Source: an uncultured Bacillota bacterium
Lineage (GTDB): Bacteria > Bacillota > Clostridia > Oscillospirales > Oscillospiraceae
Length of the DNA stretch: 42,151 nucleotides
Assembly: GCA_947649625.1 (NCBI GenBank)
Contig: CANSSJ010000013.1
Coordinates: forward strand, 1 to 42,151
Reading direction: 5' to 3'
Shown: positions 11,962-24,636 of the stretch, piece after piece
How positions within the stretch are numbered: the first letter of the stretch is position 1
Layout: every line of letters starts with the position of its first letter
Notes under the pieces: generated by a model
Database searches by the model: none
The model's input: the letters and a program-made list of their open reading frames with translations, nothing else
What the model was told of the DNA's origin: nothing
Translations under genes and position numbers: made by a program

Positions 11962-12990
11962 ATGGAAAAGCTGATTACTTTTGCCGTCCCCTGTTACAAC
12001 TCGGCGGCCTATATGGAGCACTGCGTGGACACCCTGCTCCAGGGCGGGGACGACATTGAGATCATCCTGGTGGACGACGGCTCCACCAAGGACGACACCC
12101 CCGCCATCTGTGACCGGTACGCCGAGCAGTACCCCGACATCGTCCGGGCCATCCACCAGGAGAACGGCGGCCACGGCGAGGGGGTGAACCAGGGCATCCG
12201 GAACGCCAAAGGCGTCTACTACAAGGTGGTGGACTCCGACGACTGGCTGGACGTAGACGCCCTGCACCAGGTGCTGGACAAGCTGCGCCAGTTCCAGCGG
12301 GACGGCAGGCCCATCGACCTGATGATCGCCAACTACGTCTACGAGCACGTGGAGGACAACACCCAGCGGCCGGTGAACTACCGCAACGTATTCCCCGTAG
12401 GCCGGGTGTTCAACTGGCGGCACATTGGCCGGTTCAGGCCGGGGCAGTACCTGCTGATGCACTCCGTCATCTACCGCACCCAGATTTTGCGGGACTGCGG
12501 GATGGAACTGCCCAAGCACACCTTCTATGTGGACAACATCTTTGTGTACGAGCCCCTGCCCCATGTGAAGAACATCTACTATATGGACGTGGACCTGTAC
12601 CGCTACTTCATCGGCCGGGCGGACCAGAGCGTCAACGAGAGCGTGATGATGGGCCGGGTGGACCAGCAGCTGCGGGTGAACTACCACATGATCGACTGCT
12701 GGGACCTGCGGGAGGTAGCAAAAAAGGACAAGAAGCTGGCCCGGTATATGTACAACTATCTGGCCATCATGATGTCCATTTCTTCCATCTTCCTCACCAT
12801 GGAGGGCAGCCCCGAGTCCCTGGGCAAGCGGACCCGGCTGTGGGAGTACCTGCGGGCGGTGAACAGCCGGCTCTACGCCCGGATGCGCTACTTCGCCATC
12901 CCCGCCGCCACCAATCTCCCCACCCTCCCCGGACGGAAGCTGTCGGTGGCCCTGTACCGGCTGGCCCGGAAGATCTATAAGTTCAATTAG
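11962..12990 (+). CDS. Glycosyltransferase family 2
   Basis: This 342-aa enzyme has a GT-A fold of family 2: 'ITFAVPCYNSAAYMEHCVDT' at the N-terminus, the nucleotide-binding 'ILVDDGSTKDDT' (about residues 34-45), 'QENGGHGEGVNQGI' and the metal-binding DxD-like motif 'KVVDSDDWLD' near residue 90. No membrane segment is obvious, so it is cytosolic or peripheral and transfers a sugar from a nucleotide donor to a surface-glycan precursor. Sitting beside glf, a galactofuranosyl donor is plausible but unproven. AGGAG precedes the ATG. Its TAG stop overlaps the TAA stop of the opposing small gene by two bases. Confidence 0.88.
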   Translation: MEKLITFAVPCYNSAAYMEHCVDTLLQGGDDIEIILVDDGSTKDDTPAICDRYAEQYPDIVRAIHQENGGHGEGVNQGIRNAKGVYYKVVDSDDWLDVDALHQVLDKLRQFQRDGRPIDLMIANYVYEHVEDNTQRPVNYRNVFPVGRVFNWRHIGRFRPGQYLLMHSVIYRTQILRDCGMELPKHTFYVDNIFVYEPLPHVKNIYYMDVDLYRYFIGRADQSVNESVMMGRVDQQLRVNYHMIDCWDLREVAKKDKKLARYMYNYLAIMMSISSIFLTMEGSPESLGKRTRLWEYLRAVNSRLYARMRYFAIPAATNLPTLPGRKLSVALYRLARKIYKFN

Positions 12991-13244
12991 AGCCGCCCCA
13001 GCTCCAGGCCGATGGAGATGCCGGAGAGGAGAAGGGCCGTCTCATGGCCGTCGTTCATTTCGTCCCACTGGATTTTGAGCTCCTCAAGCCATTGCTCCGC
13101 CTCCGGACTCAGGGCGTTCAGCCGGCCGGTTAGCACGTCCGCCTTTTGCTGCGCCAGGCGGGTCTTGCCGGCGGTTTCGCGCAGAAAGCGGGTAACCAGG
13201 TTTTCTTCTGTGTATTGCATGAGAACATCCGGTAGGGTTTTCAT
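12987..13244 (-). CDS. Small protein of unknown function, 85 aa
   Basis: A strong GGAGG site and a consensus promoter (13292-13320) show this is expressed. The protein is mostly helical and charged, for example 'QQKADVLTGRLNALSPEAEQWLEELK', with a C-terminal hydrophobic 'TALLLSGISIGLELGRL' segment too short to be a sure membrane helix. I recognise no family. It is divergent from a small XRE regulator, with an inverted repeat over its promoter, so it is probably repressed by that regulator. A toxin-antitoxin-like pair is conceivable, but nothing in the sequence proves it. Confidence 0.7.
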   Translation of the reverse strand: MKTLPDVLMQYTEENLVTRFLRETAGKTRLAQQKADVLTGRLNALSPEAEQWLEELKIQWDEMNDGHETALLLSGISIGLELGRL

Positions 13245-13269: not shown

Positions 13270-13314
13270 ACGACCGTTTGAGCGTATATCTATTATATAT
13301 GCTCGTTTGGTCGT
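13270..13314. promoter_or_regulatory. Inverted-repeat operator between small gene and XRE regulator
   Basis: The segment 13270-13283 is mirrored by 13301-13314: ACGACC and GAGC on the left pair with GCTC and GGTCGT on the right, with CGTTTG in both halves. The right half fills the spacer of the minus-strand promoter. It is the likely binding site of the XRE protein encoded next to it. Confidence 0.6.
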
Positions 13315-13334: not shown

Positions 13335-13544
13335 ATGTCTGTTTTTTCTGAACGATTAGCAGAACTGCGAGACAGCCGCAATTTATCGCAAAAGGAAGTT
13401 GCGAGAGAGTTTGGCGTTGTTGTCCGCGCTTATCAGCGATATGAATATGGAGAGCGCGAGCCTCAGTTGTCCGTTTTGATTCGGATGGCCGATTTTTACA
13501 ACGTCTCCCTGGACTATCTGGCCGGGCGGACGGATACGCCATGA
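13335..13544 (+). CDS. Small XRE-family regulator, 69 aa
   Basis: The protein is almost entirely one Cro/CI-type helix-turn-helix: 'LAELRDSRNLSQKEVAREFG' then 'YQRYEYGEREPQLSVLIRMA' and the common tail 'YNVSLDYLAGRTD'. The ATG at 13335 follows GAGGAG; the upstream extension has no RBS. Codons are clearly more AT-rich than in the flanking genes, which suggests acquisition. It probably binds the 13270-13314 inverted repeat and controls the divergent 85-aa gene and itself. Its stop codon overlaps a terminator that works on the opposite strand. Confidence 0.85.
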   Translation: MSVFSERLAELRDSRNLSQKEVAREFGVVVRAYQRYEYGEREPQLSVLIRMADFYNVSLDYLAGRTDTP

Positions 13545-13576
13545 AAAAACCTGTTTTGCCGTCTTGACAAAACAGG
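13544..13576 (-). terminator. Minus-strand terminator facing out of the non-coding locus
   Basis: A 9-bp perfect stem (13550-13558 with 13568-13576) is followed on the minus strand by TTTTTT (13549-13544). No minus-strand protein gene precedes it, so it must end a non-coding transcript. Confidence 0.7.
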
Positions 13577-13593
13577 GAGCAGTTCGATATAAT
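13564..13593 (+). promoter_or_regulatory. Plus-strand promoter of the non-coding locus
   Basis: TTGACA (13564-13569), an 18-base spacer and a perfect TATAAT (13588-13593) are seen. No supported protein gene follows before the terminator at 13803. Confidence 0.75.
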
Positions 13594-13765
13594 AAAAACA
13601 GAAGGGTGCTTGCTGCTTTAGCGGTCAGCCCACTTTATAGGATCAACGAAAACCGTTGACCGCTCGGGAGCAGCCGGGCGGTCAACAAGCATTTATGGCT
13701 GACAGATACATAAGTATCGCTGTACCTGCCAGAAATCTGGCCTCGCCATTCGGCTCGGTGTGTCT

Positions 13766-13794
13766 ATCATACCCGATTTGACGTTTTATGTCAA
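13766..13794 (-). promoter_or_regulatory. Minus-strand promoter of the non-coding locus
   Basis: On the minus strand TTGACA and TATGAT are spaced by 17 bases. The -35 forms one arm of a short palindrome (TTGAC, seven bases, GTCAA). Confidence 0.7.
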
Positions 13795-13802
13795 TTATTC
13801 CG

Positions 13803-13823
13803 CCGCCCGCTGGGCGGTTTTTT
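13803..13823 (+). terminator. Plus-strand terminator of the non-coding locus
   Basis: A 6-bp all-GC stem (13803-13808 with 13812-13817) with a GCT loop is followed by TTTTTT. Confidence 0.8.
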
Positions 13824-13837
13824 CTTTGAAAAAGGAA

Positions 13838-24346: not shown

Positions 24347-24356
24347 CCATTTTAAA

Positions 24357-24390
24357 GGGGACGCCGGACAGGCCGGCGTCCCCTCTTTAT
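24357..24390 (+). terminator. Terminator of the PadR operon
   Basis: An 11-bp perfect stem (24357-24367 with 24373-24383) is followed by TCTTTATT. Confidence 0.8.
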
Positions 24391-24636
24391 TGTATAAAGA
24401 AAACCTCGTCGGGCCTTGACCTGACGAGGTTCTCTTCTGGCGGGAGCGCCCCGGGGTTCCATAGCTGTCCGCCGCCGGGCTCACCGTCACGGCGCAGGCG
24501 GTACCCGCCCGTGCGCAATGGTCAGGCTGCCGTTTTTCAACAGGTTGAATCGTTCTCTCAAGAATCCCGCGATTATTTTGTCATTTTATACAAGTTCTTT
24601 TGCCAAAAATGGTGCAGAACGTCAAGGAAAATTTCA
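24391..24636. other. Intergenic stretch with an inverted repeat
   Basis: No gene is supported here. A 9-bp perfect inverted repeat (24402-24410 with 24423-24431) is followed on the minus strand by TTTTCTTTAT, so it looks like a terminator for a minus-strand transcript. I could not find a matching promoter or gene. The GC-rich part (24430-24540) gives way to AT-rich sequence before the next promoter. Confidence 0.4.

Follow-up and report, generated by a model that had tools for sequence, protein, structure and literature searches.

The window considered here, a stretch of 42,151 nucleotides from an uncultured Bacillota bacterium, contains beside a small XRE gene a locus with a promoter and a terminator on each of its two DNA strands, which raises the question of what two such opposed and overlapping transcripts might be for. 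The first-pass annotation had likened the arrangement to an antisense pair such as a type I toxin-antitoxin locus, and that likeness is borne out by relatives of the locus, which encode a hydrophobic peptide of 24–34 amino acids on the strand equivalent to the window's minus strand. The locus itself is very probably what remains, after decay, of a type I toxin-antitoxin-like element that is dispersed among Oscillospiraceae-type bacteria, and would now be an orphan antitoxin. Read in this way, its parts are:

13544..13576, minus strand: former toxin mRNA terminator, an 11-pair stem and T6, enclosing the −35 box of the plus-strand promoter
13564..13593, plus strand: promoter of the antisense (antitoxin) RNA, TTGACA-18-TATAAT, 12/12 to consensus
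13600..13632, plus strand: 5′ leader of the antisense RNA, half of an inverted leader pair in intact relatives (from the R1 model match described below and the covarying panhandle of the relatives)
13655..13686, plus strand: central 13-bp stem-loop, within which lies, on the minus strand, the stop codon of the toxin-like peptide
13682..13735, minus strand: remnant of the toxin-like ORF, the last 17 of 28 codons, FLAGTAILMYLSAINAC, and the stop TGA (from the frame 2 translation and alignment of the orthologous site)
13736..13765, minus strand: deletion junction and residue of the toxin mRNA 5′ end (from anchor spacing and alignment)
13766..13794, minus strand: former toxin mRNA promoter, TTGACA-17-TATGAT, 11/12 to consensus
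13802..13823, plus strand: terminator of the antisense RNA, a 7-pair GC stem and T run (a like stem aligns in two orthologues, L003 and L005)

Both promoters are thus present as first annotated. The plus-strand GC stem with its T run, originally placed at 13803–13823, was found as a stem at 13802–13818 followed by the T run; for the minus-strand terminator, the stem (13576–13550) and the TTTTTT (a T run to 13544) were confirmed, but the stem has 11 pairs, not the 9 bp given originally. Between 12000 and 16000 there are seven promoter-like sites against 1.1 expected, and six terminator-like sites against 3.4 expected, so that terminators alone do not clearly exceed chance in this region. Among 2000 dinucleotide shuffles of 13540–13830, none had a 12/12 promoter on either strand and none had promoters of at least 11/12 on both. 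Both strands also fold more stably than shuffled sequences (z −4.87 and −4.21). A covariance-model search of the window against Rfam gave 0 matches at the gathering score; a one-sided match to a known family, the outcome that had been named as speaking against an antisense pair, is thus absent.

The same site is present in four other genomes (G015, G033, G007 and G048), with the order glycosyltransferase, small gene, XRE, element and downstream gene. An ORF preceded by a good ribosome site is present in two of the four, G015 (L003) and G007 (L005). G033 (L004) has a changed ribosome site, and in G048 (L009) the element breaks off at the central stem. The distance between the same anchors is 70 nt in the window, compared to 162 in L003 and 182 in L005. 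A deletion of approximately 90–110 nt has therefore removed the leader, the ribosome site, the start and the first 11 of the 28 codons of the toxin mRNA from the window copy, which means that the toxin cannot be made there. A start codon and a ribosome site were sought for the ORF remnant at 13682..13735 on the minus strand and neither was found, and the small hydrophobic ORF with ribosome site that is found in the relatives is absent from the window copy. The earlier statement that no hydrophobic toxin peptide is visible thus holds for this copy, where only the back 17 codons are left on the minus strand. What has been retained is the antisense promoter, the RNA body (leader and stem) and the terminator. 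Loss of the toxin first would be the expected order of events for a toxin-antitoxin pair, and the window would represent a natural case of antitoxin retention after toxin loss.

The evidence for a toxin-like peptide comes from the relatives. In a set of 110 distinct elements, a ribosome site and a hydrophobic ORF of 22–40 amino acids ending in or near the central stem were found in 87, with 0/110 on the opposite strand. As orientation in this set was partly chosen by the ORF, the count was redone with 63 elements oriented by the leader alone: 49 have a ribosome site and a hydrophobic ORF of 22–40 amino acids on the strand equivalent to the window's minus strand, and the same test gave 0/63 on the opposite strand and, in the 200 nt upstream, 0/63 on each of the two strands. 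By the ribosome-site and ORF test, 23 of the 110 elements lack the ORF, and it is likely that some of these calls reflect contig ends, wrong orientation or a failed ribosome-site test. Ten of the 23, the window among them, have kept the antisense promoter at 11/12 or better; of these ten, L043 and L108 are cut by a contig end, and L095 still has its ORF, having failed on the ribosome site. Wrong orientation is the probable explanation for several others of the 23.

With an earlier choice of start, 72 of 81 ORFs were either 28 (32 ORFs) or 31 (40 ORFs) amino acids long. The peptide ends in -Ala-Cys (-AC) in 63/87 ORFs, whilst some rumen copies end in -AY just ahead of the stem. Synonymous changes made up fractions of 0.565 (85 pairs) and 0.447 (228 pairs, with pairs that are not independent in either case) of the changes in the ORF against an expectation of 0.24–0.25, and the fraction exceeded that of all three opposite-strand frames, which indicates that the ORF evolves as coding sequence. 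Scans of the -AC-type peptides against Pfam and NCBIfam matched no toxin family, Fst/Ldr and other small toxins included; against PF16935 (Hol_Tox) there was no match at E ≤ 1 for seven peptides and none at E ≤ 10 for two more (ending -AC and -AK). The RNA signature can thus find such loci where a 28-residue peptide alone escapes the protein families.

That signature was examined next to the coding evidence. The antisense promoter is present at 11/12 or better in 80/86 toxin-bearing relatives and the toxin-side promoter, at the same threshold, in 59/86. A perfect inverted repeat of at least 6 bp lies across the antisense −35 box in 31 of the 90 elements with a promoter of at least 11/12, compared to 7.9% of shuffled flanks. 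The leaders at the start of the two RNAs are similar and form an inverted repeat at the DNA level, so that the 5′ end of each RNA can pair with its own 3′ end. For 56 non-redundant elements (80 full elements, less 16 in which the leader pattern failed and 8 near-duplicates), the RNAalifold consensus contains three structures: this panhandle, the central stem and a further stem that covers the ribosome site. In 16 copies from the genus, double-sided changes were observed in 12 of 47 pairs, a number reached in 0/500 shuffles, and 88.8% of cells were paired against 31–42% in slid controls; among the five measures used, the number of further pair types did not exceed that in shuffles (226/500). 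Every cell of the central stem was paired in these 16 copies, and two of its pairs showed double changes. This covariation supports a structured toxin mRNA, from which we infer a translational lock.

The strand on which the structure was selected can be approached through G-U pairs, which turn into A-C mismatches when read on the opposite strand. In the panhandle, with leader columns 1–5 excluded as fixed by the leader search pattern, the toxin mRNA had G-U in 87 cells and the antisense RNA in 18; of 17 pairs one was a tie, and 14 of the remaining 16 informative ones favoured the mRNA. These sequence comparisons suggest that the panhandle lock was selected in the toxin mRNA. In the central stem the G-U pattern tends instead towards the antisense RNA, by 17 to 0 cells at the 16 loci first found by similarity; overall, with the pair whose base the search pattern had fixed dropped from the count, the preference was 14 to 2 cells with all 14 from one pair, a weaker result than that for the panhandle. 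A leader-swap test gave a modest effect: pairing of a leader with its own 3′ end gave −57.8 kcal/mol, compared to −49.8 kcal/mol when swapped, and a copy's own leader was the best in 11/80. Eight relative loci compared with Rfam at E ≤ 1 yielded only MIR1858, far below cut-off; in L005 these matches fell on both strands and the identity was rejected. By eye, the segment of around 20 nt between leader and central stem is strongly variable among copies and often contains TCAAC. Pairing of TCAAC with the GTTGA of the stem is possible, forming an alternative hairpin or a specificity segment.

A dispersed, multi-copy element with inverted repeats might also be a miniature transposable repeat, whose ends are the inverted leaders and whose transcripts are incidental. 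We regard this as highly improbable, however, since the inverted leaders do not include the conserved promoters, the ORF evolves under coding selection, and the panhandle pairs obey the G-U rules of RNA on one strand.

Reading the locus as a decayed toxin-antitoxin element, we can ask how widely its relatives occur. A blastn search with 13540–13830 found similar DNA in 18 of 99 genomes, one of them the window's own, and thus in 17 of 98 others, often in several copies each; these comprise 16 of the 60 other genomes of the same genus and one genome of another genus. A pattern search of species genomes with the central stem gave 91 stretches, some of which are the same places. The matches listed belong mostly to Oscillospiraceae or similar groups (Oscillospiraceae, Ruminococcaceae, Oscillibacter, Lawsonibacter, Pseudoflavonifractor, Colidextribacter and Flavonifractor); the rest bear various other names from Clostridia or unspecific MAG labels. 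Records titled Pseudoflavonifractor sp. 60 and Colidextribacter sp. OB.20 are among the carriers.

A covariance model, R1, built from 41 copies matches the window's plus strand at 13602–13701 with 75.9 bits; a second plus-strand match in the window, at 24355–24443 (E 0.02), was taken as chance. With the window's own genome included in each count, R1 matches 28 of 64 genus genomes, with up to 10 matches per genome; at the level of the order it matches 11 of 197 and at that of the phylum 4 of 398. Together with the stem pattern, the order-level matches take conservation past close relatives, the lack of which had been named as a refuting outcome. The other three phylum matches are L173, which is false, and L135 and L172, which carry other peptides; the weak match in L173 (1380–1900) lies in a CRISPR-like repeat array. 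Within its own genome the window copy is accompanied by an ORF-bearing copy on contig C61 and a copy with a TTG start on C11, and matches on C113 (L125 and L126) are without a peptide, look like coding sequence and were likewise taken as chance.

Tandem copies, two or three in a row, occur in L091 (5136–5924), L075 (1343–1718), L088 (2145–2386) and L053 (2903–3096). The stem was also found in 14 viral-contig stretches; every one of these stretches has the ORF, and some are identical to each other or to genome copies. The neighbours were scanned on three of these contigs: a phage tail protein adjoins L175, a weak match to a phage hemolysin or lysis protein lies near L181, and the one neighbour of L177 scanned gave no match. 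At five hand-chosen chromosomal loci the neighbours are unrelated, and include diaminopimelate epimerase, adenylosuccinate lyase, YmdB and a Mur-ligase-domain protein. Phage and plasmid records searched with the DNA of the window element gave no match, nor did either collection when searched with one consensus-like peptide. The element would represent a large type I-like toxin-antitoxin family of Oscillospiraceae-type gut and rumen bacteria. Among the titles listed by full-text literature searches, none pointed to a described type I system of these bacteria.

The window copy may still be useful, with its orphan antisense RNA silencing other copies, whether those on C61 and C11 or incoming, phage-borne ones. 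The 12/12 promoter, the leader, the stem and the terminator have all been retained, there are two further ORF-bearing copies in the same genome, and copies are carried on viral contigs. There is also a partial parallel in E. coli, in the expressed orphan type I antitoxin orzP, an antitoxin gene retained after loss of the toxin ORF (PMC11264685); it is a different system, and expression has been shown for orzP whereas for the window it is predicted. The predicted pairing of the window RNA with the C61 mRNA (−220) is, however, no better than that with an unrelated copy (−233), and only the orthologue does better (−296), so the pairing energies give no support for action in trans on the C61 copy. 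On balance a continuing role of this kind seems unlikely.

The layout, the conserved ORF with its coding-type evolution, the covarying pairs and the orthologous site, as legible in the sequence, fit a scheme for intact copies of the toxin-antitoxin element as follows. A strong promoter, on the plus strand in the window, would drive a constitutive antisense RNA, and a second, opposed promoter would produce an mRNA for a hydrophobic peptide, mostly of 28 or 31 residues and usually ending -Ala-Cys, which is presumably a single-helix membrane peptide that inserts into the membrane and is toxic. Base pairing between the 5′ leader and the 3′ end, together with a stem that covers the ribosome site, probably keeps the full-length mRNA locked, and processing or opening would render it translatable. 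The fully overlapping antisense RNA would capture and silence any mRNA that escaped the lock, with RNase III as the probable agent. An overlapping antisense RNA gene with its own promoter, by which a type I system is recognised, is thus predicted from the sequence. In the window, the deletion would have abolished the toxin and left the antisense RNA gene as an orphan antitoxin.

Known type I systems offer several parallels. For aapA/IsoA of Helicobacter pylori, PMC6733600 describes a 30-amino-acid peptide (AapA3) with an antisense RNA on the opposite strand, a long-distance 5′–3′ lock of the full-length mRNA, and hairpins at the ribosome site, all of which resemble the present element. IsoA3 is given there as 80 nt against a 225-nt mRNA, whereas the predicted RNAs of the window element both span nearly all of it; the host differs and, as far as can be compared, so does the peptide. 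The modules of Clostridioides difficile (CD2517.1-RCd8 and others), as presented in a review (PMC6563280), are alike in having a small hydrophobic peptide and an overlapping, convergent antisense RNA, in belonging to Clostridia and in occurring also in prophages. According to the same review, their toxins are 34–59 amino acids long with a charged, lysine-rich C-terminus, unlike the -AC element, and neither ‘Oscillo’ nor ‘Ruminococc’ appears in its text.

A close likeness was found with loci encoding holin-like (Hol_Tox, PF16935) peptides in Clostridia. Three R1 matches, L135, L169 (same genus) and L172, have two leaders, a ribosome site and a stop-codon stem but encode a different peptide with a basic-residue end; PF16935 matches L135 weakly (E 0.095) and did not match L169 or L172. 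In L169 and L135 (around 1400–1750) the same RNA chassis is seen with a peptide ending KRK instead of -AC. With the window's own genome included in both searches, PF16935 was found in 13 of 64 genus genomes at E ≤ 0.1 (one over cut-off) and in 8 of 147 order genomes at E ≤ 0.01 (five over cut-off). Together these searches gave 26 loci, for 19 of which an ORF reading was tried: 14 were used, seven of them over the Pfam cut-off, five could not be resolved, and the remaining seven loci were not tried. The 14, with L135, L169 and L172, make 17 holin-like loci. The stop codon lies inside a stem of at least 7 bp in 15 of these, the exceptions being L204 and L211, against 24% at random positions, and the leader pairs better with its own 3′ end (−63.7) than with a swapped one (−49.2). 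R1 matches the expected place at E < 0.01 in L191, L207 and L201, and more weakly in L200, L190 and L195; the R1 match in L205 and L210 is at one other place on the contig that they share.

The Hol_Tox loci thus have the same RNA layout as the -AC element, with a stop-codon stem and pairing of the leader with the 3′ end, but their peptides have a TYxxLF-type start and a basic Lys/Arg tail where -AC peptides have a W- or G-rich basic start and the -AC end. Profiles of the two showed no similarity (hhalign probability 1.1%), although profiles of 30 columns give this comparison little power.

These loci bear on a further alternative, that the peptide, rather than a toxin, is a small membrane peptide with a regulatory or signalling role, its expression held down by the antisense RNA. 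Toxicity is a property that we infer from sequence, and an -Ala-Cys C-terminus as strongly kept as this one, in those 63 of 87 ORFs, would suit a signal. The ending is explained in part, however, by the position of the stop codon within the stem, the RNA layout is that of the holin-like loci, a named kind of toxin, and tandem and viral-contig copies suit toxin-antitoxin elements. We therefore judge a regulatory peptide to be quite unlikely, and a toxin the better description.

The type I toxin BsrG, of BsrG/SR4 in Bacillus subtilis, is one that we take to be linked to PF16935. Conserved bsrG/SR4 loci with a different toxin are mentioned in a review of B. subtilis systems (PMC6562991), which would provide a precedent for toxin exchange. 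It is tempting to suppose, though we do so tentatively and consider it the less probable case, that there is a portable RNA chassis, made up of opposed promoters, inverted leaders acting as a 5′–3′ lock, a ribosome-site stem, a stop-codon stem and a full-length antisense RNA, that has come to carry two or more unrelated membrane peptides, among them the -AC and the holin-like. The RNA circuit would then be the unit of selection and the toxin exchangeable, with decayed copies persisting as orphan antitoxins that blunt incoming copies, for example phage-borne ones. As an RNA signature is common to the -AC element and to holin-like loci with unrelated-looking peptides, whether the RNA circuit or the toxin defines the family becomes testable.

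The XRE neighbour pointed out in the first-pass annotation is conserved at the orthologous site in the four other genomes; as a general partner of the element it is at most a candidate. Outside that site, tblastn with the window XRE matched seven collected loci at 38–44% identity; in two or three of these (L081, L051/L144) a match and an element are no more than about 0.4 kb apart, and in the rest at least 0.7 kb. A divergent 85-amino-acid gene beside the XRE (12987–13244) matched no Pfam family, and shows 43–44% identity at the orthologous site against approximately 90% for the glycosyltransferase before it. Between this gene and the XRE gene, a further 12/12 promoter (13320–13292) overlaps an imperfect 20-nt inverted repeat (13270–13314), which looks like the operator of an XRE repressor.
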